This document shows positions 19,164 to 62,262 of a stretch of 64,000 nucleotides of DNA, piece after piece. The stretch comes from Xestospongia bergquistia (lineage: Eukaryota > Porifera > Demospongiae > Haplosclerida > Petrosiidae). Both the position numbers and the translations under genes were made by a program. Numbering within the stretch: position 1 is the first letter of the stretch; every line of letters starts with the position of its first letter. The stretch is from the NCBI GenBank assembly GCA_963965975.1, contig OZ014417.1:3887821-3951820 (forward strand), read 5' to 3'. The notes under the pieces are model-generated. The model was not told where the DNA came from. It did not search any database and saw only the letters and a program-made list of their open reading frames with translations.

Positions 19164-21535
19164 ATGGCAGGTATAATGCAAGAATTGTGTGACTACGAGA
19201 AGGGAAGACTAGGGAATATTAAAAAGAATATTGAACTCACGAAAACTTTAAGTAAAATACTATTAAATGGTAAATAAAAAGTCATAAAGATTGTGTGTAG
19301 GTTTAGATGTTAAGTCCCAAAACAAGAGTAGATTTAGGAAAAAGAGAAGGAGACGGTATAGTAATTGTAGTAATAGTAGCAGTGATAGTGGAGATGAATG
19401 GACACCTGCTCTAGAGACTTGTGTGATGAAGAAAAAAAGTGATATCACAAGAGGTAATAAATTTTTAAATTAAATATGAATGTTATTTTATTGTGTTTAG
19501 TTCCAGTAGTTGAGAATGCAGTGAGAGATCCTCTGTGTGATATAGCAGAACATGTGGTAAGTGTTTGATACAACTGTAATGTTGGGCTATCGCTCTCAAT
19601 AATGTTAGGATTATCCACATGCGAGTGTCTTGAAGCAGCAAAAACCACACCAAAAGAAATATTACCAATCTGTAGAGGTGGAGGAGCCTTCATTTGAGAG
19701 CCATAATTGCAACTTGTTGAAGGAGTTTTTCGAGTTATTTGGAAATGATAATACTGAAGAATATGAAGACTTTGAAGGATTTGATATTGAAGATGTGTAA
19801 GTTAGATTATATCAGTATTTCTCATGTTATTTTCTTAATACAGTGGTGATGTACCTCAGTTTCCAGTTAGTGAACGATATCCTAAAAGATTAATTCAACA
19901 AAAACAATACAGAGAAGATGAACTATCTGATGAAGATGAATATCTCTGTAAGTTCAGTATCAACATGGTTACTTCTACAACCTTTGTTACTAGTTTGTGA
20001 TAACTGTGAGGAAATTCATCATGGTGACTGTCCTGTTCATGGACCCTTACTAACTCTAGATCCTTCTAGTGGTCATGATGAAGCATCTCTACAATACACT
20101 AGCATATTTGTTCCATCTGAATTAACTGTTAAACCTTCTAAGATACCCAATGCTGGACTGGGTGTTTTTGCTACGCAGTTTATACCTCGTAGAGTTAGAT
20201 TTGGTCCTTATGAAGGAAGGAGAGTATTAAAAGAAGAGCTCACTGAAGGAGAAGATACTAACTACATGTGGGAGGTACTGTAGTAATGTAATAAAAAGTA
20301 TTAATTATTTTAATTTATTCAGGTAAAACATTTTGGAGAGTCATATTATATTGATGGTCAATCAGATAAGGAAAGTAATTGGTTACGATTTATTAACTGT
20401 GCTCGTAATGAAGATGAGCAGAATTTAGTAGCTTTTCAATATCATGGTAACATCTATTATCGTTCATTCAAGCATATATATCCTGGTAATGAACTCTATA
20501 TATGGTATGGTGAACAATATGCATTAGAACTTGGGATTACAACTAGTTTTGAAGAAGGTAGAGTAATTGTTTTGACAGAAATAACTTTACTATAAATTTG
20601 TAGATGATTATCAATTTTATAATTGCAAAAACTGTGGAAGTAGTTTTGTTTTGAAATCTAATTTTGATTTGCATCTTCAACGTAACCCTAACTGTCTTTC
20701 TGCTAATCCTCAATGTTTTACTTGTCAAAAGTGTCAAGAAAGCTTTTGTGAATTGTATCAGTTACAAGACCACATTCGTAAACATGAGCTATTTAATGTA
20801 AAAGAAGAAAAGCAAAAAAAGGGGCTCATTTCCAATGATAAACTGGTAGTTGGAAATCCAGATAACACTTGTGATTACTGTGGAAAGAAATTTTCGTTTC
20901 AGTCATTGTTAAAGAGACATCTTCGTATTCACACTGGTAATAAACCTTACCAATGTCAGTACTGTAGAAAAGGATTTAATCAAAGCAGTAGTCTCAAAAC
21001 TCATCTTCGTATACACACTGGTAATAAACCTTACCAATGTCAGTACTGTAGAAAAGGATTTAATCAAAGCAGTAGTCTCAAAACTCATCTTCGTATACAC
21101 ACTGGTTATAAACCTTACCAATGTCAGTACTGTGGAAAAGAATTTAATCAGAATAGTAGTCTCCAAACTCATCTTCGTATACACACTGGTGATAAACCTT
21201 ACCAATGTCAGTACTGTGGAAAAGGATTTAATCAAACCGGTCATCTCCAAATTCATCTTCGTATACACACTGGTGATAAACCTTACCAATGTCAGTACTG
21301 TGGAAAAGAATTTAGTCGTAATGCTAATCTTAAAAGTCATCTTCGGATACACACTGGTGATAAACCTCACCAATGTCAGTACTGTAGAAAAGGATCTATT
21401 CAAAAGGGTCATCTCCAAACTCATCTTCGTATACACACTGGTTATAAACCTTACCAATTTCAGTGCTGTGGAAAAGGATTTATTCAGAACGGTAGTGTCC
21501 AAAGTCATCTTGGTATTCATCTCAAAAATAGTTAA
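19164..21535 (+). CDS. PRDM9-like histone methyltransferase/zinc-finger protein, copy 1 (intact)
   Basis: Eight exons (19164-19251, 19301-19453, 19501-19556, 19609-19796, 19844-19947, 19994-20274, 20323-20557 and 20604-21535) join in frame to 678 aa. Residues ~9-30 (CDYEKGRLGNIKKNIELTK) match the KRAB-like helix of PRDM9; a basic run and DSGDEWTPAL follow. Exon 5 gives an SSXRD-like segment (ERYPKRL...LSDEDEYL) leading into a zinc knuckle CDNC-x7-C-x2-H (198-212). The PR/SET domain (~230-368) has GLGVFATQFIPRRVRFGPYE, NCARNEDEQNLVAFQYHGNI and ELYIWYGEQYALELGI, keeping the Tyr residues that are catalytic in mammalian PRDM9. A C2HC-like and a C2H2 finger precede an array of eight 84-bp fingers with TG(D/N/Y)KP linkers. 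The last finger has lost its first Cys. Expected role: H3K4/K36 methylation at sites chosen by the fingers; unproven here. Confidence 0.9.
20880..21535 (+). repeat. C2H2 finger minisatellite, copy 1 (8 fingers x 84 bp)
   Basis: 28-codon units encode [10 protein letters not shown], a variable helix, L-x-x-HLRIH and TGDKP. Helix residues -1 to 6 read FQSLLKR, QSSSLKT (twice), QNSSLQT, QTGHLQI, RNANLKS, QKGHLQT and QNGSVQS. Two successive units are identical in protein and nearly so in DNA, showing recent duplication. Outside the helix positions the units are almost invariant. Confidence 0.85.
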
Positions 21536-22175
21536 CTATTTTTTCTAATCATTATTCATTATCACTTTATTAAATTACCATAGTAACAACACTACACAAA
21601 TATAGTTCTAGATAAGTTAAAGCAGTTCCGGGGCGACTAATCACAAGTTCCTGTGCACCGTAATAACAAAATACAATGTCACTGTAGCTAGTGGAGTAAG
21701 TGAAGTCAACACCTCTAACCAGTGATAGCAGTGCTTCTTATACAATTAAAGTGGATGTAAATTGTTTTGTTATGACAATTATTATCCTACTTAAAATTCG
21801 TCCCACTGTACAAAATATTACAAAATTATTTTATCCTAGAATAAAATATTGCTTCAGGATTTTGTCCTACCATCACAAAATTTATCGTAAGACAAAAAAA
21901 TTTTGGCTTGCAACATTTTATCCTAAGGTAATAAATTGCTTGCCAACATTCTATCCCAGGACAATAGATGGCTTGCTATATTTTAGTCTCTGAAAAAATA
22001 ACGTGTTATATTTCATTCTATAGACTAATAATAATATTCTAGGATAGCATGATTATTATTTTGTTTATATTGGAGAGCTGATAATGCTAGTATATTTCAA
22101 AAACTCTAAACTTTTGAACTAGAACATTATCCAGAAATTTTATCACACAGGTTATAAACCAAATTTAATTTGCAC
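21536..22175. repeat. Conserved 3' block of the PRDM9-like duplication, copy 1
   Basis: This block follows each PRDM9-like copy (also 29446-29995, 48811-49365, 57950-58375 and 62260-62805). It contains 'aacagaatacaatgtcactg', 'accagtgatagcagtg' and an AT-rich part built from short palindromes such as ttatcctaggataa and tgtcctaggacaaa. It then leads into a fragment of finger sequence ('tatcacacaggttataaacc' here). No gene is seen. The palindromic part may be a small non-autonomous transposon inserted into a formerly longer finger array. Confidence 0.6.
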
Positions 22176-22261
22176 TGTACCACCCACTATTAATTTATTA
22201 GAAGTCACAACCACCACTAGTCTCACATATGCATAGCCAGCCAGCCACAAGTCTTGCATAG

Positions 22262-22360
22262 CCAACCCTCTTTATATTAGTATACTTATCCTTACATCTC
22301 TAGTCCAGTATTTGCATTAAATTATCAATACGACACATGGCAACTTCATAACATTAGGCA
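22262..22360 (+). pseudogene. PAE/Notum-like exon relic
   Basis: The sequence ttagtatacttatccttaca ... caatacgacacatggcaact is a copy of the PAE exon encoding the SPIFVLNSQYDTWQLHN region (compare 25860-25945 and 60150-60225). It is isolated and cut short. Confidence 0.6.
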
Positions 22361-24159
22361 CCATGAAACTGGATAGCCCTCACCATGTAATAGTATATCA
22401 GTATAATTATAGGCCTGCTTTTCAAGATCTCATCAAGATCCATGTGATATAACCTGAAGTAATTGTATTTCGTTGTCATCACTTGTACATCCTACAAGGA
22501 GTCATCAATCTTGTACCACCTTTTGTTGTTTAAAGTGTACAAAACATAATGATCTTGTGTAGAAAATGGTCCAATGTGCTCTATCATTACCACCATGTCA
22601 AACATAACTGTAGCTCCCTAAATTGTATGTGTTATGATAACTTGTAATTTTGCTTTAAGCACCTGTGCACCACAATGATGTAATTCTTTAGAAAAGGTAC
22701 TAGTGATATACATTTTGTGCTTGGCCATTCTTCCAAAGGAATCAATATATGTAATTTGCTCTTCATAAAATTATCGTCAAACAATGAGAAGAGTATACTT
22801 TCATAATTGAAGTTTTAAAATGGATAGCAATTAATGTAGATCTTGTTTTACAGTTTTACGAATTTCTTTGTCACATCTATTTTTGGTAATACAACTAATT
22901 ATATCAGACTAGTTGAAAATGTATTAATCATAATACCCCCTCTTTTTCAGATGACATCACTTTTTGATTGCATCTTCTATGTTAGCTCCCTACCTGATAT
23001 ATGTAATATATTATCAACACATTAATAGTTTTGTTATACCTGCACAGTGATTTGTAAATTTGATTCCTTACTTTCATAAGATGTGGATGATCCACATTTT
23101 AGAGATTCAATTATATTATGGAAAATATACATTTTATGTACATTATGTCTTCTTACTAGTACTAGGTATTTGGAGTTTCAGTTAATTTGTGTACACTGGT
23201 ATCACTTATGATTAAATTATAAAAAGTTGGTGCTCTTTCACAATAAACAAGAAGTTTTTTGTCTAGATGACTCACCTCCAGGCTTATATTTTAGTCAAAG
23301 TTAGTCTGATAGCAAAGTATTGGCTGGCTATGTATATGCAACACACTTTTCCTCGTTTGCTTATATGTAACTTGTCCTAGTAAATGTAGTATTCATTTGG
23401 AAGGTGGAGAGTACTGTGGTGTCATATATGATGAAGGAGGTTGTTTAGGTTGAAGTAAATCAAGTCTTGGATCATCAAAATCCTGGCCAACTATTGCTGT
23501 GTTCTCTGGTTTCTTTCTGACAATCAAGACACTAATCTTGACTTTTATAATTGGAATCTAGCTTTTATTAACTATTGTGATGGAGCATCATTTAGTGACA
23601 ATGTGTAAGTTATAATATAACATCAATGATTGTGTATACATGTATTATACTATAGTGACCATCCAGTTGATGTAGAAGGAACTCCAATCTATTTTAGAGG
23701 CTTCAAAATACTTCAATCAATACTGGGTGGACTAATGATAGCTGGAATGGATAAATCTGAGGAAGTGATTCTAACTGGTTGTTCAGGTTGTAAATTATAT
23801 TTCAGTACATACAGTAGCAACCCCTTTCTTTTTTAATAAATTTTGTTATAATATTTATAACATATATTAACTAGTACTTTATACTGTCAATTCCAAAATA
23901 CTATAATAATTATAATAAAAATAGTTATTATATCTTTTATTATTTTAGCTTGTGATTTAGCCACTTATTTTTATATTGATCATCCACTAAGTATAAAACT
24001 ATGTATGGCTGATGCTGGGTAAGTCATCTGTATATAAATAAATGCTATGCTTTATTGTAAATGCATGATTTTTGTTATTTGATAGATATATTATCGATGT
24101 TATAAACATTACTGGTCAAATGCACTTTGTCAGTATGGTTTAGCCTTCAATTACAGCTA

Positions 24160-24420
24160 CCATATCCTCTCACGATATCTCTATCCGAAGCCTCAGGTTC
24201 CCACCGCTAAAGGATACATCAAAGCACTGCACACGTGCAGCCCACCCACGCAACGCTTGCAGGAATGCAGAATGTTTATAAAGTTTTGAACTTTGTGTGT
24301 ACTATAAATAGAATGCTTTTTACTTTTACTTTTCATTATTTAAGCCACTGATGAAGATAGTGGCTCTGACTATTGAAACGTTTGGCGTTAATATGTTTTT
24401 TGTTTGGTGAAATAAGAAAT
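24160..24420 (+). mobile_element. Possible retroelement 3' tail
   Basis: A less AT-rich patch within the PAE-2 insertion ends in ctgatgaagatagtggctct followed by gactattgaaacgttt. Phrases of the form 'tgaagat...gaaacgttt' are common at the 3' ends of several retroelement families in animals. No coding domain is visible, so this is weak. Confidence 0.3.
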
Positions 24421-24464
24421 GAATATTAAAACATTAATACGAACCCTTTTCTGACTATATGGTG

Positions 24465-24976
24465 ATATAATTAAGATGTATTGTTGTAATAGATTAGTTC
24501 TATTAAGTAATTGCTGGTCACTCATCAGGTGCATACATGTCTACAAACTACATTTATTTCTAGCATTCTATAGTTACTCCATGTAAATAGATACAGCTGC
24601 CTATGTTCCCATCTTTATAACTCCACAGTTCAATGTAAGTCATTTTTTTAATTTTGTTATTTAATGTGACTATATAGTAAAGTCAATGCATAAAACATTT
24701 TTTGGGCATATAATTAAGATGTATTGTTGTAATAGATTAGTTCTTTTAAGTAATTGCTGGTCACTCATCAGGTGCATACATGTCTACAAAGTACATTTAT
24801 CATTTGAAAACTTAATCTGTTTTGATTACTAATTACTATAGAATTTACAAATCATATAGTTTCAACACATGCAATGAATCTAGAGCTCATACTGACAAAA
24901 TTTACTACAAGATTTGTCAAATAGTATATTAATTTAAAAATGGCTTGTATCCCATCATGTATTATTGTAGCTCAAC

Positions 24977-25014
<38 letters not shown>

Positions 25015-25260
25015 TTGAATAAGTAATACTTTTATATAGTGATATATGTATGCATGCATGCTAAGCGCTATATATAATATATTAGGTTCATTTATACAAA
25101 GGCTTGAAGCTTCTTTTAAATTATTTCTAGCATTCTATAGTCACTCCATGTAAATAGATACAGCTGCCTATGTTCCCATCTTTATAACTCCATATAAGTC
25201 ATTTTTTTAATTTTGTTATTTAATGTGACTATATAGTAAAGTCAATGCATAAAACAAATT
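24465..25260. repeat. Interspersed direct duplications and a (TA)n microsatellite
   Basis: A ~90-bp block (taattaagatgtattgttgt ... gtgcatacatgtctacaaa) occurs at 24469-24550 and 24712-24800. A ~130-bp block (tctagcattctatagt ... caatgcataaaaca) occurs at 24560-24693 and 25128-25256. A pure TA run lies at about 24979-25011. No gene is seen in this stretch. Confidence 0.75.
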
Positions 25261-26970: not shown

Positions 26971-27095
26971 TAATAGTAGTTATTATTAATAAATTTATTT
27001 TTAACAAAAACCATTAGGGGGAGTTGCTAATATTTTTAACGGAAATATAGTGGTTGTTTACCAGCTAGACTTAGGCGCTCAAAAGGGCGGATATA

Positions 27096-29445
27096 ATGCA
27101 AGAATTATTGTGTGACTACAAGAAAAGAAGACTAGAGAATATTAAAAAGAATATTGAACTCACGAAAACTTTACGTAAAATACTATTACATGTTAAATAA
27201 AAAGTCATGAAGATTGTGTATAGGTTTAGATGACAAGTCCCAAAAGAAGATAAAAGGAGACGATATAGTAATTGTAGTAATAGTAGCAGTGATAGTGGAG
27301 ATGAATGGATACCTGCTCTAGAGAATTGTGTGATGAAGAAAAAACCAATTAATATCACAAGAGGTAATAAACTTTAAATTAAATATGAATGTCATTTTAT
27401 TGTGTTTAGTTCCAGTAGTTGAGACTGCAGTGAGAGATCCTCTGTGTTATATAGCAGAACATGTGGTAAGTGTTTGATACAACTGTAATGTTGGGCTATC
27501 CCTCTCAATAATATTAGGATCATCAAGTTACAAGTGTCTTGAAGCAACGACAAAAGAAATATTACCAACCTGTAGAAGGGGAGGAGCCTTCATTTGAGAG
27601 CCTTGATTGCAAGTTGTCTAACGAGTTTTTTAAGTTATTTGGAGATGATAATATTGAAGAATGTGAAGACTTTGAAGGATTTGATATTGAAGATGTGTAT
27701 GTTAGATTATAAGAAAAAGCCAAATAATATCACGAGAAGTACTAAAATTTTAAATTAAATATGAATGTCATTTTATTGTGTTTAGTTCCAGTATTGCTCA
27801 TGTTATTTTCTTAATACAGTGGTGATGTATCTCAGTGTCCAGTTAGTAAAAGATATCCTAATAGATTAAGTCACCAAAAAGAACACAGAGAAGATCATGA
27901 ACTATCTGATGAAGATGAATATCTCTGTAAGTTGAGAATGAATATGGTTACTTCTACAACTCTCTAACTAGTTTGTCAGGACTGTGAGGAATTTCATCAT
28001 GGTGATTGTCCTACTCATGGACCCTTACTGACTCTAGATCCTTCTAGTGGTCATGATGAAGAATCTCTACAATACACTAATGTATTTGTTCCAGTTGAAT
28101 TAACTGTTAAACCTTCTAAGATAGCCAATGCTGGTCTGGGTGTTTTTGCTACACAATTTATACCTTGTAGAGTTAGATTTGGTCCTTATGAAGGAAGGAG
28201 AGTGTTAAAAGAAGAGCTCAATGAAGGAGAAGATACTAGCTACATGTGGGAGGTACTGTAATAAAATAATAAAAAGTATTAATTATTTTAATTTATTCAG
28301 GTAAAGCGTTTTGGAAAGGAGTCATATTATATTGATGGTCAATCAGATAAGGGAAGTAACTGGTTACGATTTATTAACTGTGCTCGCAATGAAAATGAGC
28401 AGAATTTAGTAGCTTTTCAATATCATGGTAACATCTATTATCGCTCATTCAAGCATATCTATCCTGGTAATGAACTCTATGTATGGTATGGTGAACAATA
28501 TGCAAGAGAACTTGGGATTACAACTAGTTTTGAAGAAGGTAAGGTAACTCTTTTGACAGTAATAACTTTACTAATTATAACTATTTAGATGATTGTCAAC
28601 TTTATAATTGCAAAAACTGTGGAAGTAGCTTTGTTTTGAAATCTAATTTTGATTTGCATCTTCGACATAATCCTAATTGTCTTGCTGCTAATCCTCAATG
28701 TTTTAGTGTAGAAGAAGAAAAGCAAAAAATGGGGCTCATTTCCAATGATAAACTGGTAGTGCGAAATCCAGATAACACTAGTGATTATTATAGAAAGAAA
28801 ATTTCGCGTCAGTCATCAATGAGGTATCATCTTCGTATCCACACTAGTGACAAACCTTACCAATGTCAGTACTGTCGAAAAGGATTTAGTCAGAATGGTG
28901 ATCTTCAAACTCATGTTCATATACACACTGGTGATAAACTTTACCAATGTCAGTACTCTGGAAAAGGATTCAAACAAAGCAGTTATCTCCAAACTCATCT
29001 TCATGTACACATTGGTGATAAACCTTACCAATGTCACTACTGTGGAAAAGGATTTAGTCAGAATTGTAATCTTCAAACTCATCTTCGTATACACACTGGT
29101 GATAAACCTTACCAATGTCAGTACTGTTTAAAAAGATTTAATCAAAGCAGTCATCTCCAAACGCATCTTCGTATACACACTGGTGATAAACCTTACCAAT
29201 GTCAGTACTGTGGAAAAGAATTTAGTCAGAATGGTAGTCTCCAAAATCATTTTCGTATACACACTGGTGATAAACCTTACCAGTGTCACTACTGTGGGAA
29301 AAGATTTAATCAAAGCAGTCCTCTCAAAACTCATCTTCGTATACATACTGGTGATAAACCTTACCAATGTCAACACTGTGGAAAAGAATTTAGTCAGAAT
29401 GGCAGTCTCCAAAGTCATCTTCGTGTTCATCGTAAAATAAATTAA
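27096..29445 (+). pseudogene. PRDM9-like gene copy 2 (disrupted)
   Basis: The usual exons can be traced: 27096-27174, 27224-27363, 27410-27465, 27518-27696, 27820-27926, 27972-28252, 28301-28538 and 28588-29445. The family's normal start ATG is changed to AGG, leaving an ATG four codons later. Exon 2 has lost about 16 bp in the basic run, which shifts the frame before DSGDEW. An ~80-bp copy of the exon 2/intron 2 segment is inserted in the intron before exon 5. The PR/SET exons stay open and complete (FGPYEGRRVLK, NCARNENEQNLVAFQYH, VWYGEQYARELGI). The second fixed finger is deleted and the first array finger has lost its cysteines. Seven array fingers follow, one of them with Cys to Ser. It could still give a SET-finger protein from an internal start, but the full-length form is broken. 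Confidence 0.8.
28770..29445 (+). repeat. C2H2 finger array, copy 2
   Basis: There are eight 84-bp units. Helices include QNGDLQT, QSSYLQT, QNCNLQT, QSSHLQT, QNGSLQN, QSSPLKT and QNGSLQS. Position -1 is always Gln here, while positions 2 and 3 change from unit to unit. The set differs from copy 1. Confidence 0.85.
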
Positions 29446-35805: not shown

Positions 35806-36889
35806 TCAATTAATTATATATTGGGTTATGATGGCATTAGTTGATGCAGTGGTATATTTTGTGTAAACTGCTGTATCTGCTTCTAATCTGTTGACAGAGG
35901 AAGGATGATTCATCTGATAATTATGAGGTTTCCGTAGAAAAGTGATATGAACTAGAAGTGCTAGTCTAGAGAAAAATCCTAGCAGCCAATATGTCACTAA
36001 ATGAGCCATTGCTAAATTATAGCTCCCATGTGAAGATATAGCTCCATAGATCCGATCAATTAAGGGAAAGAGAACTAGCATATAGAACACAATTGGATAT
36101 GCTAGCAATGGTAGGAGTTGTTTTAAAGCAGTCTTGTTACGATTTTGTTCTTGGTTAATTATCAGTGGTTCAGCCTCTGCTTCGTGGTGTCTACATGATC
36201 TATAAGTTAAAACAAAAAGGATGCTAATGACCACAAACAAACAGACAGTAAGAGAGACAACAAGAGGTCCATACCACAATGTAAATTGTTCTATAATTCC
36301 TTCCTTGTACTTCCTATTAGGACAGTTGTCATTCCAATTTCGTATGCAACACCATGCATTTGATATGCCATATGAGTTGTTAATAAATGGAATCCAGACA
36401 TGAAGTAAAGGAAACAGCACAGATAGCAAAATGTAGATGACTTCTAGTTTCACAAAGTTTTACCCACGTTGTATATTGGATAAGAAAAGCTGTTGCCTTG
36501 CAGGCAATAGAATAAAATAGATTGCTTCTATAGTTTATATTTAATATAACCAGACATTCAGTCATACTAAACAATAACGCAGCGACAACTTGGTAAATTG
36601 CCAATCGATAAACAAAATATTTGTATAACTTTAGACAAAGAACTATTGCTATTGTCACAATACACATCAGAGTTGATACAGCACTAGTACTTGTCATTGC
36701 TATCAGCAAATGGTTCATTTGACTCTTGGTAAAAGATCCATTGCAATGATTGGAAAACGAATTAGAAGGTAAGGACTCCATTTCAGCAACGATCCAAACT
36801 CCTCCTACCGGATGCAAACCGTAATGTCTAAACATACCTATTTTTTGCTGAATGTCTGATAGGTCTATACAAAGTAGTATTAATTTCAC
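35806..36889 (-). CDS. 7TM G-protein-coupled receptor-like gene, one frameshift
   Basis: Two overlapping minus-strand frames, 36889-36380 and 36453-35806, form one protein of about 360 aa if joined near 36450. Seven hydrophobic segments can be counted, including LLIAMTSTSAVSTLMCIVTI (TM1), YQVVAALLFSMTECLVIL (TM2), TAFLIQYTTWVKLC (TM3), VIYILLSVLFPLLHVWIPF (TM4), LWYGPLVVSLTVCLFVVISI (TM5), LLPLLAYPIVFYMLVLFPL (TM6) and YWLLGFFSRLALLVHITF (TM7). The loop before TM5 has NAWCCIRNWNDNC, similar to the WCxI loop of cAMP-receptor-like 7TM proteins. No class is certain. The frames join by a single-base shift; no plausible intron fits, so it is either a recent pseudogene or a sequence error. Confidence 0.6.
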
Positions 36890-37519
36890 ATTAAACTGTT
36901 GTGTTTTCTATAAATTGGTAATAAAGTATTTTCATTTGCCATTATTGTAATTTGTGATCAGGTAAGTGGCATTTAATAAGACATAATTATTTATTTTATT
37001 TTATTATAGCTAATTTCACATCAAAATGTGGCTTTATTCTGCTAGCATCTAGCCATATTATAAACATTAACTTTTGAGTCTTCAACACAAATGAAGGTCT
37101 AGACCACAGTACTGATTTTCTGTATGCTTGTGTTGTTGCTCTGGAAACAATAATTGATTGAGAAACTTGTACAGGCTAGGAAACAAAAATGTACCATTTT
37201 TATGCTACAATAGATATTTATGATGCTACTTAGAAATATGATAAGCATCCATAGTCTATCAACCCTAAATGTTTTAAAATTTCATTGATTTATATACCCC
37301 AACAAGTTGCAACTGTATCATTCTAGTTCAGTCATACAATTTATTTCCTAGTTACAATGCTAAAAGTGATGAAATAATATGACCGAATCTGCAGACAGAC
37401 ATATCTGTCCTTATAAACGATCTTACATACTAAAGAGGCGGAGCCTGTAGAATTAGGACAGCTTCTGTAGGGCGTTCCATATTCTTGGTAGAGATGAAGA
37501 ACGCTTTTCTCTTTATAGT

Positions 37520-42513: not shown

Positions 42514-45124
42514 ATGGCAGATGTAATGCAAGAATTATGTGACTATGAGAAGAGAAGACTAGAGAATGTTGAAAAGAATATTGAGCACATGAAAACTTTA
42601 GGTAAAATACTATATTGTATGGTAAATATAAAGTCATTAAGATTGTGTGTAGGTTTAGATGTTAAGTCCAAAAAGAAGAGTAGAGTTAGAAAAAGGAGAA
42701 GGAGACGATATAGTAATTGTAGTAATAGTAGCAGTGATAGTGGAGATGAATGGATACCTGCTCTAGAGACTTGTGTGATGAAGAAAAAAACAAATGTCAT
42801 GAAAGGTAATAGACTTGTAAATAAAATATGGACATCGTTCTTTTGTGTTTAATTCACTAAGTTACAAGAGCCTTAAAGCGAAAAAAACCACAACAGAAGA
42901 AATATTACAAACCTGTAGAGGGGGAGGAGCCTTCATTTGAGAGCCTTGATTGCAAGTTGTCTAATAAGTTTTTCAAGTTATTTGGAGATGATAATAATGA
43001 AGAATATAAAGACTTTGAAGGATTTGATATTGAAGATGTGTAAGTTAGATAATATCAATATTGATGATATATTTATCTTAATACAGTGGTGATGTACCTC
43101 AGTGTGCAGTTAGTGAACGATATCCTAAGAGATTAAGTCACCAAAAAGAATACAGAGAAGATGAACTATCTGATGAAGATGAATATCTCTGTAAGTTTAG
43201 TATCAATATAGTTACTTCTACAACTTTCATTATTAGTCTGTGACAACTGTGAGGAAATTCATCTTGGTAACTGTCCTGTTCATGGACCCTTACTAACTCT
43301 AGATCCTTCTAGTGGTCATGATGAAGCATCTCTACAATACACTACTTTATTTGTTCCATCTGAATTAACTGTTAAACCTTCTAAGTTAGCCAATGCTGGA
43401 CTGGGTGTTTTTGCTAAGCAGTTTATACCTCGTGGAGTTAGGTTTGGTCCTTATGAAGGAAGGAGAGTGTTAAAAGAAGAGCTCACTAAAGGAGAAGATT
43501 CTAGCTACATGTGGGAGGTACTGTAATAAAATAATAAAAAAGGATTACTTTTTAAAATTATTTAGGTGAAGCGTATTGGAAAGAGGTCATATTATATTGA
43601 TGGTCGATCAGATAAGCAAAGTAATTGGTTACGATTTATTAACTGTGCTCGCAATGTAGATGAACAGAATTTGATAGCTTTTCAGTATCATGGTAACATC
43701 TATTATCGCTCATTCAAGCATATCTATCCTGGTAATGAACTCTATGTATGGTATGGTGAACAATATGCGAGAGAACTTGGGATCATAACTAGTTTTGAAG
43801 AAGGTAGGGTAATTCTTTTGGCAGAAATAAAATTTACTATTTATTTTTAGATGATTGTCAACTTTATAAATGCAAAAATTGTGGAAGTAGTTTTGTTTTG
43901 AAAGCTAATTTTGATTTGCATATTCGACATAATCCTAATTGTCTGCTTGCTAATCCTCAATGTTTTACTTGTCAAAAATGTCAAGAAAGTTTTTGTGAAT
44001 TGTATCAGTTACAAGACCACATTCGTAAACATGAGCAACTTAATGTAAATGGAAGAAATCATAAGAAAGAACTCATTTCCGATGATAAACTGCTAGTTGA
44101 GAATCCAGATAATATGTGTGATCATTGTGGAAAGAAATTTTCTTGTCAGTCATCATTGAGGATTCATCTTCGTAGACACACTGGTGGTAAATCTTACCAA
44201 TGTCAGTATTGTGGAAAAGGATTTAGTCATAATGGTAGTCTCCGAAAACATCTTCTTATACACATGGGTGATAAATCTTACCAATGTCATTACTGTAGAA
44301 AAGGATTTAATCGGAATGGTGATCTCCAAAAACATCTTCGTATACACACTTGTGATAAACGTTACAAATGTCAGTACTGTGGAAAAGGATTTAGTCAGAA
44401 TTGTAATCTCCAAACTCATCTTCGTATACACACTGGTGATAAACCTTACCAATGTGAGTACTGTGGAAAAGGATTTAGTAAGAATGGTAATCTCCAAACT
44501 CATCTTCGTATACACACTGGTGATAAACCTTACCAATGTGAGTACTGTGGAAAAGGATTTAGTAAGAATGGTAATCTCCAAACTCATCTTCGTATACACA
44601 CTGGTGATAAACCTTACCAATGTGAGTATTGTGGAAAAGGATTTAGTGTGAATAGTAATCTCCAAACTCATCTTCGTATACACACTGGTAATAAACCTTA
44701 CCAATGTCAGTACTGTGGAAAAGGATTTTGTTCGAGTGGTGATCTCCAAAGACATCTTCGCACACACACTGGTGATAAACCTTTCCGATGTCAGTACTGT
44801 GGAAAAGGATTTAGTGTGAATAGTAATCTCCAAACTCATGTTCGTATACACACTGGTGATAGACCTTACCAATGTCAGTACTGTGGAAAAGGATTTTATC
44901 AAAGCAGTAATCTCCAAACTCATCTTCATACACACACTGGTGATAAACCTTACCAATGTCTGTACTGTGCGAAAGGATTTAGTCAAAGCTGTTATCTCCA
45001 AACTCATCTTCGTATACACACTGGTGATAAACCTTACCAATGTCAGTACTGTGGTAAACGATTTAGTCAAAGCTGTCATCTCCAAGCTCATGTTCATATA
45101 CACACTGGTGATAAACCTTACTAA
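42514..45124 (+). CDS. PRDM9-like histone methyltransferase/zinc-finger protein, copy 3 (open)
   Basis: Seven exons (42514-42601, 42653-42805, 42862-43039, 43087-43190, 43237-43517, 43566-43803 and 43851-45124) join in frame to 771 aa. The acceptor of family exon 3 is mutated (ttag to ttaa) and exon 3 is gone, yet exon 2 joins exon 4 in the correct phase using an AG at 42860-42861. The N-terminus has CDYEKRRLENVEKNIEHMK, a basic run and DSGDEWIPAL. Next come SSXRD-like RYPKRLSHQKEYREDELSDE, the zinc knuckle CDNC...C..H, and a full PR/SET domain (GVRFGPYEGRRVLK, NCARNVDEQNLIAFQYHGNI, VWYGEQYARELGI). Two fixed fingers and twelve array fingers follow. A TAA after GDKPY ends the protein inside what was a thirteenth finger. 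It is the longest open array in the window. Confidence 0.88.
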
Positions 45125-45924: not shown

Positions 45925-48810
<2,886 letters not shown>

Positions 48811-49559
48811 TTATTTTTCCTAATCATTATTCATTATCACTTGATTAAATTACCATAGCAACAACACTAATTGACAATAGAGAAAAGTTTCAGGATGACT
48901 AGTCTCCAAGTTCCAGAGCACAGTAACAGAATACAATGACAATGTAGCTAGTGGAGTGAGTGAAGTCAAGTAACAACTCTAACTAGTGATAGCAGTGTTG
49001 CCATGACAACTATTGTCCTAAAATTTGTTCCACCAGATAAAATATATCAAACTATTTTTTATCCTAGGATAAAATATTGTGCAGAATTTTGTCACAAAAT
49101 TTATCAAAAAAATTGACTTGCAATATTTATCCTAGTATATAAAAAATGGTTTGCAATATTTTATCCCAGGACAATAAATGTCTTGCTATATGTATTTCAA
49201 TTTATAAAAAATATAACTTGTTTAATTTCATTCTATAATAATATTCTAGGATATCATGATTATCATTTTGTCAAGTTATAATTAGAAGACTGATAATGCT
49301 AATATATTTTAAAAACTGTAATACACTTTTGAAATTAACTAGAACATTGTACAGAAAGTTTAACACACAGTACTAGTTGTCACAAACCAAACAGATGATC
49401 TTTGATGATCTCTTCCGAGACTTGTATGCAGGTATCATTAATATAGTACCACTCAGAACATGTACTGCACTGAATAATCTTTAAATCTTTGATCTCTAGC
49501 ATCAGACTTTTGCAGTATATATAGGTAATGTTGGTGATTTTATAGATTTTTCAACCAAC

Positions 49560-50241: not shown

Positions 50242-50289
50242 GAATGTTTTATGAAGACTGTGATGATGAAGTGATAGGTACAGAATTAA

Positions 50290-51220: not shown

Positions 51221-53660
51221 ATGGCAGATGTAATGCAAGAATTATGTGACTATGAGAAGAGAAGACTACAGAATGTTGAAAAGAATATCGAGCACATGAA
51301 AACTTTAGGTAAAATAATATTGTATGGTAAATAAAAAGTCATAAAGATTGTGTAGGTTTAGATGTTAAGTCCCAAAAGAAGAGTAAAGTTAGAAAAAGGA
51401 GAAGGAGACGATATAGTAATTGTAGTAATAGTAGCAGTGATAGTGGAGATGAATGGACACCTGCTCTAGAGACTTGTGTGATGAAGAAAAAAACAAATGA
51501 TGTCACAAAAGGTAATAAATATGTAAATTAAAGATGGACATTATTCTTTGTGTTTAGATCACCAACTTACAAAAGTCTTGAAGCTGAAAAACCACAGAAG
51601 AAGAAATATTATCAACCTATATATGGGAAGGAGCCTTCATATAAGAGCCTTGACTACATGTACAAGTTGTCTAATAAGTTTATTGAGTTATTTGGAAATG
51701 ATAATAATGAAGAATATGAAGACTTTGAAGGATTTGACATTGAAGATGTGTAAGTTAGATTATATCAGTATTGCTGATGTTTTTTTTTTCATAATACAGT
51801 GGTGATATACCTCAATGTCTAGTTAGTGAAAAATATCCTAAGAGATTAAGTCATAAAAAAGAATACAGAGAAGATGAACTATCTTATGAAGAGGAATATC
51901 TCTGTAAGTTCAGCATCAATATCGATACTTATTTATATATAACTTTCATTATTAGTTTGTGACAACTGTGAGGAGATTCATCATGGTGACTGTCCTGTTC
52001 ATGGACCTTTAATAACTCTAGATCCTTCTAGAGGTCATGATGAAGCATCTCTACAATACACTACTGTATTTGTTCCATCAGAACTAACTGTTAAACCTTC
52101 TAAGATACCCAATGGTAGTCTGGGTGTTTTTGCTGCACAATTTATACCTCGTAGAGTTAGGTTTGGTCCTTATGAAGGAAAGAGAGTGTCAAAACAAGAC
52201 CTCACTAAAGGAGAAGATACTAGCTACATGTGGGAGGTATTGTAATAAAATAATCAAAAGTATTAATTATTATAATTTATTCAGGTGAAGCATCTTGGTG
52301 AGGAGTCATTTTATATTGATGGTCAATCAGATAAGCAAAGTAATTGGTTACAATTTGTTAAGTGTGCTCACAATGAAGATGAACAGAATTTAGTAGCTTT
52401 TCAGTATCATGGTAACATCTATTATCACACATTCAAGCATATCTATCCTGGTAATGAACTCTATGTATGGTAATTGTGAACAATATGCAAGAGAACTTGG
52501 GATTACAGCTAGTTTTGAAGAAGGTAGTGTAATTCTTTTGGCAGAAATAAAATTTAGTATTTATTTTTAGATGATAGTCAACTTTATAATTGCAAAAATT
52601 GTGGAAGTAGATTTGTTTTAAAAGCCAATTTTGATTTGCATCTTCGACATAATCCTAATTGTCTTGCTGCTAGTCCTCAATGTTTTACTTGTCAAAAATG
52701 TCAAAAAAGTTTTTGTGAATTGTATCAGCTACAAGGCCACATTCGTAAACATGAGCTATTTGATGTAACAGGAAAAAAACAAAAGAAAGGGCTCATTTCT
52801 AATGATAAACTGGTGGTTGGAAATCCAGATAATATGTGTGATTATTGTGGAAAGAAACTTTCTAGTAAGTCATCATTGAGAACTCATCTTCGTATACACA
52901 CTGGTGATAAACCTTACCAATGTCAGTACTGTGGAAAAGGATTTACTCTTAATAGTAGTCTCCAAAGGCATCTTCATATACACACTGGTGATAAACCTTA
53001 CCAATGTCATTACTGTGAAAAAGGATTTAATAATAAGAGTAATCTCCAAAAACATCTTTGTATACACACTGGTGATAAACCTTACCAATGTCAGTACTGT
53101 GGAAAAGGATTAAGGGATAATGGTTGTCTCCAAACACATCTTCGTGTACATACTGGTGATAAACCTTACAAATGTCAGTACTGTGGAAAAGGATTTAGTC
53201 ATAATGGTAATCTCCAAACACATCTTCATATACACACTGGTGATAAACTTTACCAATGTGAGTACTGTGGAAAAGGATTTATTAATAATAGTAATCTCCA
53301 AACTCACCTTCATATGCACACTGATGATAAACTTTTCAAATGTCAGTATTGTGGAAAAGGATTTAATCAAAGCTATAGTCTCCAAGATCATGTTTGTATA
53401 CACACTGGTGATAAACCTTACCAATGTGAGTACTGTGGAAGAGGATTTAGTAATGATAGTAATCATCAAATTCATCTTCGTATGCACACTGGTGATAAAC
53501 CTTACCAATATCAGTACTGTGGAAAAAGATTTAATCAAAGCAATCATCTCCAAACTCATCTTTGTATACACCGGTGATAAACCTTACCAATGTCAGTAGT
53601 GTGGGAAAGGATTTAGTAATAATATTAATGTCCAAACTTATTTTTATATTCATTTATAAT
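51221..53660 (+). pseudogene. PRDM9-like gene copy 5 (SET domain frameshifted)
   Basis: Exons: 51221-51308, 51356-51511, ~51556-51749, 51800-51903, 51956-52236, 52285-52523 and 52571-53577. The start and N-terminal helix are intact (CDYEKRRLQNVEKNIEHMK). Exon 3 is missing as in copy 3, but a 1-bp loss in exon 4 (gaagctgaaaaacc) puts the exon 2-4 join out of frame unless a weak AG at ~51589 is used. A 1-bp insertion at ~52472 turns VWYGE into VW-stop, removing the last catalytic Tyr of the SET domain. The finger exon is open for nine array units and then loses frame at ~53573 through a 2-bp deletion. It could produce only truncated products. Confidence 0.82.
52835..53655 (+). repeat. C2H2 finger array, copy 5
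   Basis: Helices read SKSSLRT, LNSSLQR, NKSNLQK, DNGCLQT, HNGNLQT, NNSNLQT, QSYSLQD, NDSNHQI and QSNHLQT, followed by a frameshifted unit NNINVQT. Position -1 takes S, L, N, D, H and Q. This is the most divergent set of arrays in the window. Confidence 0.85.
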
Positions 53661-54970: not shown

Positions 54971-55019
54971 GTTATGGTAATGAACAATCAGTGTGTTATT
55001 TTTATTAAATCATTTTAAC

Positions 55020-55496: not shown

Positions 55497-57930
55497 ATGG
55501 CAGATACAACCCAAGAATTATGCGATTACGAGAAGAGAAGAGTAGAGAATATTAAAAGGAATTTTGAACTCATGAAAACTTTGGGTAAATTACTATTACA
55601 TGGTATATAAAAGTCATAAGATTGTGTAAGTTTAGATGTTAAATCCCAAAACAAGACTAGAGTCAGAAGTAGGAGACGATATAGTAATTGTAGTAATAGT
55701 AGCAGTGATAGTGGAGATGAATGGTTACTTGGTCTAGAGACTTGTGTGATGAAGAAAAAACCAAATGATATCACAAAAGGTAATAAACTTTAAAATTAAA
55801 TATGAAAATCATTTTATTGTGTTTAGTTCCAGTAGTTGAGACTGCAGTGAGAGACCCTCTATGTGATGTAGTAGAACATGTGGTAAGCAGTTGATAGAAC
55901 TGTAATATTGGTCTATCCCTCCTAATAATGTTAGGATCATCAACATACGAGTGTCTCGAGGCAACAGAAACCACAACAAAAGAAATATTATCAACCCGTA
56001 GTGGGGGAGGAGGCTTCATTTCTGAGCTATGGTTGCAAGTTACCTAAGGAGTTTTTCAAGTTATTTGGAGATGATAATGTTAAAGAATATGAAGACTTTG
56101 AAGGATTTGATATTAAAGATGTGTAAGTTAAATTATATCAGTATTGGTAATGTTGTTTTCTTAATACAGTGGTGATATACCTCAGTGTCCAGTTAATGAA
56201 AGATACCCTAAGAAATTAAGTCAACAAAAAGAATATGGAGGAGATGAACTATCTGATGAAGATGAATATCTCTGTAAGTTCATTATAAATATAATTACTT
56301 TTATAACATTTGTTACTAGTTTGTGAGGACTGTAACGAATTTCATCATGGTGATTGTCCTGTTCATGGACAATTACTGACTCTAGATCCTTCTAGTGGTC
56401 ATGATGAAGCATCTCTACAATACACTACAGTATTTGTTCCAGCTGAATTAACTGTTAAACCTTCTAAGATTCCAAATGCTGGTCTGGGTGTTTTTGCTAC
56501 ACAGTTTATACCTCGTAGAGTTAGATTTGGTCCTTATGAAGGAAGGAGAGTGTTAAAAGAAGACCTCACTAAAAGAGAAGATACTAGCTACATGTGGGAG
56601 GTAGTGTAATAATATAATAAAAATTATTAATTATTATTTAATTTATTTAGGTAAAGCGTTTTAGATTATATTGATGGTCAATCAGATGAGGAAAGTAATT
56701 GGTTACGATATATTAACTGTGCTCGCAATGAAGATGAACAGAATTTAGTAGCTTTTCAGTATCATGGTAACATTTATTATCGATCATTTAAGCATATCTA
56801 TCCTGGTAATGAACTCTATGTATGGTATGGTGAACAATATGCAAGAGAACTTGGGATTACAACTAATTTTGAAGAAGGTAAAGTAATTCTTTTAGCAGAA
56901 ATAACTTTACTATCTAGTTTTAGATGATTGTCAACTTTATAATTGCAAAAATTGTGGAAGTAGTTTTGTTTTGAAATCTAATTTTGATTTGCATCTTCGA
57001 CATAATCCAAATTGTCTTTCTGCTAATCCTCAATGTTTTACTTGTCAAAAATGTCAAGAAAGCTTTTGTGAATTGTATCAGTTACAACACCACATTTGTA
57101 AACATGAGCTATCTAATGTAAAAGAAGAAAATCAAGAAAAGAGGCTCATTTCCAAAGATAAAGTGGTAGTTGGAAATCCAGATAACACTTGTGATTATTG
57201 TGGAAAGAAATTTTCGTATACATCATCATTGAGGAATCATCTTCGTATACACACTGGTGATAAACCTTACCAATGTCAGTCCAGTGGAATAGGAGTCAAT
57301 CAAAGCAGTTCTCTCCAAATTCATCTTGGTATGCACACTGGCAATAAATCTTACCAATGTCAGTACTGTGGAAAAGGATTTAGTTGTAATAGTAATCTTC
57401 AAGCTCATCTTCGTATACACACTGGTGATAAACCTTACCAATGTCAATACTGTGGAAAAAGATTTACTCAGAGTAGTGAACTCAAAACTCATATTCGTAT
57501 ACACACTGGTGATAAACCTTACCAATGTCAGTACTGTGGAAAAGAGTTCAATCAAAGCAGTTCTCTCCATACTCATCTTCGTATACACACTGGCGATAGA
57601 CCTTACAAATGTCAGTACTGTGGAAAAGGATTTAGTCATAGTGGTAATCTTCAAGCTCATCTTCGTATACACACTGGTGACAAACCATACCAATGTCAGT
57701 ACTGTAGCAAAAGATTTAGTCGTAATGGTAGTCTTCAAACTCATGTTCGTATACACACTGGTGATAAACCTTACCAATGTCAGTACTGTGGCAAAAGATT
57801 TAGTCGTAATTATAGTCTTAAAACTCATGTTCGTATACACACTGGTGATAAACCTTACCAATGTCAGTACTGTGGAAAACGATTTAATCAAAGCACTCAT
57901 CACCAAACTCATCTTCGTGTTCATCTTTAA
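55497..57930 (+). pseudogene. PRDM9-like gene copy 6 (SET domain and splice site damaged)
   Basis: Exons: 55497-55584, 55631-55779, 55827-55882, 55935-56122, 56170-56273, 56320-56600, 56651-56877 and 56934-57930. All eight family exons exist, with exon 3 present as in copies 1 and 2. The acceptor of exon 2 is mutated (gtag|gttta to gtaag|ttta), which forces a one-base shift. Exon 7 has lost 11 bp after VKRF, so the second half of the SET domain is out of frame. The finger exon is fully open: two fixed fingers and nine array fingers ending HLRVHL. The second array finger is degenerate (CQSSGIGV). If transcribed, only a partial protein could be made from the upstream start. Confidence 0.82.
57175..57930 (+). 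repeat. C2H2 finger array, copy 6
   Basis: Helices read YTSSLRN, QSSSLQI, CNSNLQA, QSSELKT, QSSSLHT, HSGNLQA, RNGSLQT, RNYSLKT and QSTHHQT. The fixed framework YQCQYCGK is kept in seven of nine. Confidence 0.85.
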
Positions 57931-58379
57931 AATAGTTAACTATTTTTTGCTATTTTACAGAGCACCGTAACAGAATACAGTCTCACTGTAGCTAGTGAAG
58001 GAAGTGAATTCAACACTTCTAACCAGTGATAGCAGTGCTTCTTATTCAATTAAAGTGGATGTAAATTGTTTTGTCATGACAATTATTATCCTACCTAAAA
58101 TTTGTCCCACCTGAAAAACATTGGAAAATTATTTTATCCTAGGATAAAATATTGCTGTAGGATTTTGTCTTACTTAGCACAAAGCTTATCCTAGGACAAA
58201 ACGTTTTGGCTTGCAATATTTATTCTAAGACAATTAATGGCTTTCTATATCTTAGTCTATAGAAAAACTTGTTATATTTAATAATAATATTCTAGGTAGC
58301 ATGATTATTAATTTGTTTATGTTAAAGACTGATAGTGCTAGTATTTTTCAAAAAATGTAATGAACTTGCACATTATCCA

Positions 58380-58625
58380 GAAATTTTATCACACTGGTGA
58401 TAAGCCTTACCAACGTCAGAACTGTGGAATAGGATTTAATAATAATAGTAATTTTCTGAACTCATCTTCGTATACACACTGAATATAAACCTTACCAATG
58501 CCAGATTTGTGGAGAAGGATTTAGTAATAATAGTAATCTTCAAACTCATGCTCATATACACACTGGTGATAAATCTTACCAATGTCAGTATCAAGGATTT
58601 AGTCAAATATATACTGCAAAATTTA
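58380..58625 (+). pseudogene. Orphan finger fragment downstream of copy 6
   Basis: tcacactggtgataagcctt starts a broken finger (CGIGFNNNSNF, frame lost). It is followed by [40 protein letters not shown]. It corresponds in position and in the CQxC(G)xxFSNNS type to 29996-30175 and 62806-62955. Confidence 0.65.
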
Positions 58626-58979
58626 CATTATATATATATATATTATTAAGTTATTAGAGTTATTGTGTAATTAGTTCTCTAATATATCATTGTAAAAATG
58701 AATTTGTTAGTTTAACCAAGTCAATAGTCATTTTTGTTGTATATAATACAATATACCAGTATTTTTCCCAGCAGAAAAACATTTTTACAAGGCATTCCCA
58801 AAGTTAATTTTCGTTAAAGTTTCCAAAGTTAATTATTTTAATAGAAGTCGCACCCAACACTAGTCTTATACATAGCCAGCCCTGTGTTTTAAATCAAAAT
58901 TTGTGTTGATAATAATAAGCACAGGACATTTACCTATTAACTATTAACTGAAATGCCTTAATAAGGAAAATTAATATGC

Positions 58980-59840
58980 TACTTAAAATATTACAATTAC
59001 ATAAATAATAATTTAGATTTAAAAATATCAATATACTATTGTTTTATTTGAAATTCACTCAATACATTCCCTATTTAGCAGGTGTTGGATAAACGAGTTA
59101 TACCATGTACTAGTGGAAAAGAAAAGTGGTTTAAAAGAACAAAATTAATATGGTAATTCCTCTTTAAGTTTTATTCCACAACTTGACAAAATATTATTTC
59201 ATTCATTATTTTAAACATTCAAGACATATATTTGCATTTTGATGTATTTACTGATAGATACTTTACTTCATACCATCTCTCCATGGATAAAATATTATTT
59301 TAAACAAAAGTAAAGTCATCAACTGATAAAATCCTCTGATATAATGACAAATCATCTGCTGTAGTGTCAACTTTCCATTGACTATTAATTCATTTATCTC
59401 ATTAATATAAACAGAAAAATAGTATTAGATCCAAAACTGATCCCTGAGGAACTCCTGAAAAAACTAGTGCAGTGTCTGTTTTACTACTATATTGACTACA
59501 ACAGCCTCTGTTTTTGAGGTAGTTGATATAATCCAAGCAATTATTTAACACAATGAATCATATTATGCTGAGTAGTGGAACATAGGGGTCGACAGAGTGA
59601 AAATCTTTTTTAAAGTCGAAGAAAACAACACAAAAATCATTTCATAAATTCCCATTGAAAATAAGAGAAAGAGGGGAGTTGATATAAAGATTTCCAATAG
59701 TAGTGTATTATATATCAGGTAACAACACATTACTTAAAAATTACACAAGTCGATAATCATTTGGTGAATTGATGTTAGGAGACTTTGAAATGGACACAAT
59801 ATGACTAAGTTTCTATTCATCTGGTATTTGATCTGATCTT
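58980..59840 (-). mobile_element. LINE reverse transcriptase remnant
   Basis: Same element and orientation as 31020-32120. The block gatccctgaggaactcctga with attgactacaacagcctctg is the antisense of the SGVPQGSILD / VVV-x-NG region. Many indels. It forms part of the block between a PRDM9-like copy and a PAE gene. Confidence 0.6.
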
Positions 59841-59994
59841 CATAATAAATAGTTCTTCTTAGAAAAATCATAATTAGATGAAACTTTTGTTCTTCTGAAA
59901 CTAGTAATCTACAGAAACATTACCACAAAAAGGCAATTATTTACTGTTAAAACTTTGCTACGATAATAATAACAACATGTTTTCTATTTGTTTT

Positions 59995-60565
59995 CGATGT
60001 TTAAGATGGAGAATTGTACTAGTGGAGTCAATCAGAAATGTATTATGGCTGTCTGGAATGATACTTGGAAGTATATTAGAGCTCAGGTACATAGAAATTT
60101 AGTTTTGACGGAATATTGGTACCACTTGAAAGTACTTCTTTTTCTTCCATTAGTATACTTATCCTTACATTTCTATAGTCCAATATTTGTACTAAATTCT
60201 CAATATGACACACGGCAATTTCATAACACTCTCCAACTAAAATGCACACACCTTATTGTACTCCTGAGTAAATGGAAAGAGTTGAACAATTCTTTCATGT
60301 AAGTTTAATAACAATTAATCATGTTTTGTGTTGACAAATTATATAGGTGTTTGAAGAAGCTGCTTATCCTATCATTACATCTGAGAGTAATGGTGCTTTC
60401 TTAGACTCTTGTTTGACTCACTGTCAATCTCTGAGTGACAAATCTTGGAATTCAATAGAAGTAGGAGGTCAAAGTGCTAGTAAGACTTTTAGTAACTGGT
60501 ACTTGAAGACTTCTGGAAAATTAAAAGAAGTTGACTGTCCCTATCCATGTAATAAATCCTGCTGA
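59995..60565 (+). pseudogene. PAE/Notum-like gene, last three exons (PAE-4)
   Basis: Exons at ~60006-60086 (MENCTSGVNQKCIMAVWNDT), ~60150-60297 (SPIFVLNSQYDTRQFHN) and 60347-60565 (VFEEAAYPIITSESNGAFLD, SCLTHCQSLSDKSWNSIEVG, then SNWYLKTSGKLKEVDCPYPC and NKSC). The last exon holds the conserved catalytic His (THCQS) and the C-terminal CPYPC of the family. It is the only complete 3' end in the window. The first five exons, including GGGWC and GCSAGG, are absent upstream, where LINE sequence stands. A frame change in the middle exon (ECTHLIVLLSKW) supports a pseudogene. Confidence 0.65.
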
Positions 60566-61114
60566 ACATAATAAAAATTATATTATAAAAATTATTGCTT
60601 TGTCTATAAAGTGATAACTGTAAACTGGTTATTAATTCAAGTTAGTTTGTTTTGGTTGTTGGATGATAATATGTAGGAGACTTCATGTACCATAATTATT
60701 AAATCACTAGAATATCAGGAGTGTAAATAATATATTACAAGGATAATTTGTAAGCGTGTAAAAATAGGTTGTACTAATTAGCTGTGTTTTTACATACATT
60801 AAGGCCAGTAATCTTTCATGGAAGACACTCAACATCTATAACATTAAAATAGTTGCTATATCTCTTCGTTCCATTCAGAATTATTATACTGTACCTTATT
60901 TTTTAATATGTCAAGTAAATACAGTGCAAGAGCCACAAACCAAGTGCATCTTTAGTAGACAAATGTCAAAAGTGAAAGAACTCAAAATATGCCTATGTCT
61001 TCTGTCTATTTTCCACAAATCATTATACCATCTAGGTTTTAGCCAGTTAAAGACCATCCCACAAGCTCTGGAGGAGCACATAAAGCATAAATACAAGTGA
61101 CTGTTAACATAATT

Positions 61115-62262
61115 ACAAGTTGTCTAATGAGTTTTTCGAGTTATTAGGAGATTATAATAATGAAGAATATGAAGACTTTGAAGGATTTGATATTAAAGAT
61201 GTGTAAGTTATATTATATCAGTATTGGTATAATGTTGTTTTCTTAAAACAGTGGTGATATACCACATTGTCCAGTTAGTGAAAGATAGCCTAAGAAATTA
61301 AGTCAACAAAAAGAATATGAAGGAGATGAACTATCTGATGAAGATGAATATCTCTGTAAGTTCATTATGAATATAATTACTTTTATAACATTTGTTACTA
61401 GTTTGTGAGGACTGTAACGAATTTCATCATGGTGATTGTCCTGTTCATGGACCCTTACTGACTCTAGGTCCTTCTGATGGTCATGATGAAGCATCTCTAC
61501 AATACACTACTGTATTTGTTCCAGATGAATTAACTGTTAAACCTTTTAAGATACGCAATGCTATTCTAAGTGTTTTTGCTACACAGTTTATACCTCGTAG
61601 AGTTAGATTTGGTCCTTATGAAGGAAGGAGAGTGTTAAAAGACCTCACTAAAGGAGAAGATACTAGCTACATGTGGGAGGTTCTGTAATGAAATAATAAA
61701 AAGTATCAAGTATTTTAATTTATTCAGATAAAGCGTTTTGGAGAGGGGTCATATTATATTGATGGTCAATCAGCTGAGGAAAGAAATTGGTTACAATTTA
61801 TTAACTGTGCTTGCAATGAAAATGAGCAGAATTTAGTAGCTTTTCAGTATCATGGTAACATCTATTATCGTTCATTCAAGCATATCTATCCTGGTAATGA
61901 ACTCTATATATGGTAGTGTGAACAATTAGCAAAAGAACTTGTTATTGCATTGTCAGTACTGTAGAAAAGGATTTAATCGTGATCTAAAAAATCATCTTCG
62001 TATGCACAGTGGTGATAAACCTTACTGTAGAATAGGATTTATTCAAAACAGTCACCTCCAAACTCATCTTTGTATACATACTGGTAATAAACCTTATCAA
62101 TGTCAGTACTATGGAAAAGATTTAATCAAAGCATTCATCTCCAAAATCATCTTCGTATACACGCTGGTGATAAACCTTACTAATGTCAAGACTGTGGAAA
62201 AGAATTTAGTCAGAATGTTAGTCTTCAAAGTCATCTTGTTATTCATCTTAGAAATAGTTAAC
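61115..62262 (+). pseudogene. PRDM9-like gene copy 7 (5' truncated, broken)
   Basis: It begins inside exon 4 (YEDFEGFDIKDV, to 61202). Exon 5 (61252-61355) has a stop (ERYPK changed to ER-stop). Exon 6 (61402-61679) is open with knuckle CEDCNEF...C..H and RVRFGPYEGRRVLK, minus one codon. Exon 7 (61728 on) reads NCACNENEQNLVAFQYHGNI and ends ELYIW-stop. After a deletion that removes intron 7 and both fixed fingers, the sequence runs into three broken array fingers (61950-62262). The 5' junction at about 61115 joins the helical-domain relic/LINE block, so exons 1-3 and the promoter are lost. Confidence 0.82.

Follow-up and report, generated by a model that had tools for sequence, protein, structure and literature searches.

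A multigene family of PRDM9-like genes in a demosponge genome

Why would a sponge hold, side by side, many copies of a gene that vertebrates carry as one to few? The question is raised by 64,000 nucleotides of Xestospongia bergquistia DNA (contig OZ014417.1, positions 3,887,821 to 3,951,820), here called the window, which carry a cluster of genes resembling PRDM9. We report that the SET domain of these genes occurs at at least 68 genomic places, fragments included, that the family is very probably a PRDM9 family, and that the DNA-contact residues of its zinc fingers have changed under positive selection while the SET domain is under constraint. For the function that we predict, a role in meiosis, we put the chances at about even, the main rival being the targeting of repeats in the manner of KRAB-ZNF genes.

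Results

The window (C7:3887821-3951820 in our contig numbering) belongs to a genome of 146,460,797 bases in 21 contigs. The initial annotation had described in it seven same-strand genes with a common exon structure, and its + strand does carry seven SET domains that coincide with the copies first noted. These follow one exon order, which copy 7 keeps only in part: e1 encodes half of a KRAB box, e2 a basic stretch and a DSGDEWTP motif, e3 is variable, e4 is acidic and is followed by e5, e6 encodes a zinc knuckle and the first half of PR/SET, e7 its second half, and e8 the post-SET fingers and the C2H2 array. The count itself needs revision, since only two of these copies escape damage or doubt and the family is several-fold larger, 'seven' being an effect of the window limits. 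We classed a copy as intact if it matched each of seven exons and had an ATG, exon matches without stop or split, the e6 donor, the e7/e8 splice dinucleotides (with leniency at the e7 acceptor) and at least five regular C2H2 matches; the e1-e5 junctions and exon 3 lie outside these criteria. Two of the seven copies (1 and 3) are intact by this definition. Spliced copy 1 is an open frame of 678 amino acids from ATG to stop, and copy 3 needs an alternative acceptor, picked by eye. In window positions, the copies are:

Copy 1: 19164..21535, + strand; intact; half-KRAB, EWTP motif, zinc knuckle, PR/SET and a last exon with 8 regular C2H2 matches; SET at 20155-20511 (+)
Copy 1, exons 1-4: 19164-19251, 19301-19453, 19501-19556, 19609-19796, + strand
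Copy 1, exons 5-8: 19844-19947, 19994-20274, 20323-20557, 20604-21535, + strand
Copy 2: 27087..29445, + strand; doubtful; open SET exons, loss of the ATG and of about 25 post-SET residues, 6 regular C2H2 matches; SET at 28133-28492 (+)
Copy 3: 42514..45124, + strand; intact provided that splicing into the acidic exon uses the alternative acceptor; 13 regular C2H2 matches; SET at 43398-43757 (+)
Copy 4: 45925..48820 (end approximate), + strand; pseudogene; first SET exon frameshifted, array interrupted by stops; partial SET at 46996-47250 (+)
Copy 5: 51221..53577, + strand; second SET exon frameshifted, open last exon with 9 regular C2H2 matches; SET at 52120-52470 (+)
Copy 6: 55497..57930, + strand; second SET exon damaged at its 5' end, last exon open with 9 regular C2H2 matches; SET at 56481-56831 (+)
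Copy 7: 61108..62262 (end from the first reading), + strand; truncated pseudogene; first exons lost, stops, remnant fingers; SET at 61572-61913 (+)

Across the genome, the at least 68 SET-bearing places, merged from a subset of the matches listed, comprise 58 on C7 and eight on C1, with C14 and C4 holding a single place apiece. We modelled 48 copies, 45 of them at SET-bearing places, which leaves 23 of the at least 68 places unmodelled; the other three are cp19, a fragment that lacks the SET exons, and cp26 and cp32, which are both SET-deleted. Twenty-five of the 48 are intact and 23 fail the criteria. Protein identity to copy 1, among the modelled copies having the exon, is 44-97% for e1, 70-96% for e2, 82-98% for e6 and 79-99% for e7, which is no chance likeness. 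The window cluster has a mirror image on the opposite strand, at a distance of about 0.23-0.33 Mb, where the best matches of copies 1-3 (94-97.5%) stand in mirrored order: that of copy 1 lies at C7:3.68 Mb (97.5% identity over 3.1 kb), that of copy 2 at C7:3.67 Mb (93.9%, 1.5 kb) and that of copy 3 at C7:3.60 Mb (96.1%, 2.7 kb). The copies on C1 make up two opposite-strand groups and form one group in the SET DNA tree (100/98). This tree needs 11 changes of cluster, against a minimum of 4 and a shuffled mean of 18.3 (0 of 200 shuffles needed so few), and copies therefore move between clusters. Both cp26 (C1:1743267, L026-L027) and cp32 (C1:1679767, L020) carry a common deletion, joined at a short shared sequence, that takes out most of SET and fuses exon 6 to exon 8 in frame; the examined exons of cp26 are all open and its fingers give 8 regular C2H2 matches, and in cp32 the first exons are broken. 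The viral contigs searched held no relative.

The score in sequence comparison, the residues needed for catalysis, the zinc knuckle, the N-terminal half-KRAB/EWTP region and the way the fingers evolve all uphold the PRDM9-like character that had been claimed for the window genes. Against PDB chains, copy 1 scored 153 bits with PRDM9, 95 with PRDM12, 93 with PRDM14 and 81 with PRDM11, and the zinc knuckle region had its best matches in PRDM9 and PRDM11; an NCBIfam search gave one match only, below threshold. In a tree that includes the pre-SET region (like our other trees of PRDM proteins, without PRDM4, PRDM10 and PRDM16), the sponge genes, PRDM9 and PRDM11 group together with support 83/90, so that this tree does not put the family outside the PRDM7/9 clade, the outcome that the initial annotation had named as a refutation. 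We regard this probable position beside PRDM9 and PRDM11 as moderately supported.

Residue numbers are taken to be those of human PRDM9. Among 34 copies chosen for SET exons without stops or splits, some of which are broken elsewhere, Y341 and G278 are kept in 34/34, Y357 in 33/34 and Y276 in 30/34 (F in the other four), and the knuckle residues C205, C208 and H219 are kept in 34/34 and C216 in 33/34. The three tyrosines are those named in published work (PMC5519329). The intact copies encode a zinc knuckle and PR/SET domain with the PRDM9 catalytic tyrosines (F in a few) together with a C2H2 array, and the ratio of nonsynonymous to synonymous substitution rates (dN/dS) over SET is 0.39 (561 pairs, median dS 0.11).

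The N-terminus appears to give independent support for this kinship. The e1-e2 consensus aligns with human PRDM9 from residue 42 at a score of 82, where shuffles score 24±4.4 and 0 of 2000 reach it, and hhalign places the family N-terminus on PRDM9 with a probability of 93.7 and E 2e-7. On the sequences taken here to be the N-termini of human and mouse PRDM9, the aligned stretch covers the latter half of the KRAB box together with the DSDEEWTP motif. Among the best candidates listed, this N-terminus was found nowhere outside the family clusters, and a PDB search with the first two exons gave no match. A likeness to SSXRD depends on the knuckle, since with the knuckle removed 185 and 108 of 2000 shuffles equal it. 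The whole-genome search for SSXRD gave no match in any genome, the control included, and is therefore uninformative, and that for KRAB gave one weak match only, with stops, on another contig.

The 36 arrays, broken copies included, hold 315 tandem fingers, and their contact strings differ in 36/36, as do those of the intact copies in 25/25. As to the proposal that neighbouring genes hold several DNA specificities, the predicted repertoire is larger than claimed. Over the 21 positions compared, heterozygosity peaks at -1, 2, 3 and 6 (0.79, 0.69, 0.70 and 0.71; the next value is 0.57). The ratio of nonsynonymous to synonymous differences per site (pN/pS) over all fingers is 1.27 at contact sites (1.85 relative to overall pS), 0.89 at other non-structural sites and 0.11 at structural ones, with pN at 0.46 for contact against 0.19 for other non-structural sites. 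In nine close pairs, picked by SET similarity, with one array used twice and sites treated as independent, pN/pS is 1.93 at contact sites and 0.52 elsewhere (Fisher 5e-9); three of these pairs include a member that fails the intactness criteria (cp29, cp45 and cp05, the last from outside the SET list). Here 74 fingers could be aligned and 14 had been gained or lost. In recent pairs, contact pN is 3.7-fold that of the other positions, structural ones included.

A candidate partner lies at C9:911 kb. Three pieces of this gene, joined by eye, read as CW (Pfam 2.4e-13) followed by PWWP (9.4e-13), a pairing that we take to be that of ZCWPW1/2. In vertebrates, the presence of ZCWPW1/2 is coupled to that of PRDM9 (PMC8892340). 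A second CW gene is found at C6:96582 (L044).

Discussion

Our preferred explanation is that a PRDM9-orthologous gene was amplified in a demosponge into the multigene family described here. Each protein would bind its own DNA motif and would write H3K4me3/H3K36me3 at that motif, a ZCWPW-like CW-PWWP reader could recognise these marks in the germ line, and the marks would steer meiotic breaks or their repair, with recombination sites set by a repertoire of paralogues and not by the alleles of one gene. We hold more tentatively, at somewhat less than even chances, to the fuller version in which dozens of PRDM9 paralogues set the meiotic sites, in a hotspot Red Queen run by birth, death and finger change of neighbours and not by the turnover of alleles at a single locus, and in which the SET-deleted cp26 type independently replays the proposed origin of KRAB-ZNF-type repressors from PRDM9.

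Several results weigh against a meiotic PRDM9 family. The incomplete KRAB is the strongest of them: the Pfam search of the family proteins matched neither KRAB nor SSXRD, the first KRAB helix was not found upstream of intact copies, and in all 24 of the 25 intact copies with upstream sequence (all except cp44) an in-frame stop lies no more than 90 bases ahead of the ATG. It carries this weight because loss of KRAB in vertebrates accompanies slow fingers and no control of hotspots; vertebrate PRDM9 proteins without KRAB lack fast-evolving fingers and presumably play no part in directing recombination (PMC5519329, PMC8892340). The fingers of one array are also no more alike than those of different arrays (0.204 within and 0.204 between; 222 of 500 label permutations were as low), and therefore we see no array-wise concerted evolution. 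The contact share of amino-acid diversity is 0.30-0.61 per array with at least five fingers, below the 0.687 of human PRDM9, for which the site list may not match ours. The tree is weak when only the SET core is used, support for the group of sponge genes, PRDM9 and PRDM11 falling to 54/84, and this qualifies the clade placement given above. Of seven groupings put to approximately unbiased tests on the SET core, this group was part of the best tree itself, the union of sponge genes with PRDM2 was rejected at 0.05 with p 0.039, and five were not rejected, among them sponge genes with PRDM9 without PRDM11 (p 0.074) and, best of the alternatives, a grouping with PRDM14 (p 0.151). As for the partner, the CW part alone scores higher with MORC3 (41 bits) than with ZCWPW1 (31), and the whole-genome PWWP search did not bring up C9:911 kb.

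Much of what we observe would also be expected of a family resembling KRAB-ZNF clusters, that is, a birth-and-death repertoire of DNA readers aimed at transposons or repeats, which the methyltransferase would mark or regulate. Tandem and partly inverted clusters with many broken copies, positive selection on contact residues and the lack of array-wise homogenisation all fit such a family, and cp26, as an in-frame SET-deleted form that keeps its fingers, shows a possible route to it. We nevertheless consider it less likely than the meiotic reading, as the SET tyrosines are kept with dN/dS well below one, H3K4/K36 marks activate rather than silence, and the knuckle and, in part, the N-terminal module match those of PRDM9. 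Lower still do we rate the idea that these are ordinary, non-meiotic PRDM transcription factors, segmentally duplicated, whose finger diversity reflects relaxed constraint; the failure of 23 of the 48 modelled copies and the weak SET-only tree, with which other PRDMs are compatible, speak for this improbable reading, yet relaxation predicts equal change at non-structural positions, at odds with the contact excess in recent pairs, and the SET domain is constrained.

An inflation of copy number by uncollapsed haplotypes or misassembly might be suspected from the mirroring of copies 1-3, from the two opposite-strand groups on C1, and from the merging of all copies into one cluster at 5% SET distance under single linkage. 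At 3%, however, the 34 clean SET copies still form 21 clusters and the 25 intact ones 15, the family is spread over four contigs, and the mirrored pairs diverge by unequal amounts, so we find this explanation very improbable; uncollapsed haplotypes could be the source of some near pairs but hardly of the 15 intact clusters.

The family shares with vertebrate PRDM9/PRDM7 the zinc knuckle, a PR/SET with Y276, Y341 and Y357, a C2H2 array in the last exon, positive selection on contact sites and, by the alignment given above, probably the second half of KRAB and the EWTP motif. It differs in having dozens of copies instead of one to few, in that the first KRAB helix was not found and SSXRD went undetected, and in the lack of array-wise homogenisation; concerted evolution within PRDM9 arrays is described as typical, not universal (PMC2779102). 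The Prdm9 genes of Nematostella, Capitella and Lottia resemble it as those of early animals with contact-site positive selection (in Nematostella, whose Prdm9 fingers change rapidly, at -1, 3 and 6), and the portions of that paper cited here describe no family this large, Capitella having three sequences, perhaps alleles (PMC2779102). PRDM9 homologues of sponges are in print, described with reference to Oliver 2009 and Ponting 2011 as full-length and with all needed domains, with no mention of amplification in the text cited (PMC13186367); here half of KRAB and SSXRD were not found, and other sponges may therefore keep the parts missing from this family. Ruminant PRDM9 duplicates also comprise several copies with variable arrays, but only three of them (PMC5351255). 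KRAB-ZNF clusters share the clustering and the fast-changing repertoire of C2H2 arrays (PMC4592553). Their mark would be a complete KRAB-A that recruits TRIM28, with no SET, whereas the sponge family has SET and neither a Pfam KRAB match nor a full KRAB was found in it. Among the papers listed by our searches of the open-licence PMC literature, none describes a large PRDM9 family in a sponge.

The role of PRDM9 has been traced to the ancestor of Euteleostomi, its retention since the animal ancestor being stated as unknown (PMC13186367). The sponge family would open a direct test of whether and how a PRDM9 system works outside vertebrates. Half a KRAB beside fast contact residues strains the vertebrate rule of no fast fingers without a complete KRAB. 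Moreover, models of hotspot decay generally treat one locus with alleles, and dozens of contact-diversified PRDM9 copies, together with a putative ZCWPW-like reader, would be a natural test of these models and of the ancestral function of PRDM9.

Other observations

Three further SET matches, L029 (KMT5A-like by eye), L033 (SUV39-like by eye) and L032, were dropped, as none matches the family exons, and the lone PRDM-like SET half at C11:5644139 (L046) is a separate PRDM with its best match in PRDM14. Five finger arrays are followed on their downstream side by short remnants of SET exons (query residues 59-80 or 65-80), and four of these remnants contain a stop; the loci concerned are:

L010: SET-exon remnant
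L016: SET-exon remnant
L017: SET-exon remnant
L031:3053-3118: SET-exon remnant

The sponge-like character of the genome, also part of the initial annotation, is backed by a silicatein-like exon at C9:3186390, which reads CGCSYAFAAVGALEG, with serine where the catalytic cysteine would stand (CGCSYAF). On the rule that serine replaces the cathepsin cysteine in silicatein, the exon supports a demosponge origin. Elsewhere on this contig, C9:1502856-1522658 holds a tandem cluster of cathepsin-L/silicatein-like exons.

In the window itself, a long transposase-like open reading frame (12549-14426, + strand) and a reverse-transcriptase-like fragment (17059-17574, + strand), both recognised by eye, adjoin the cluster. 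Between copies 2 and 3, at 35806-36907 on the - strand, two overlapping open reading frames show, again by eye, receptor-like transmembrane stretches.

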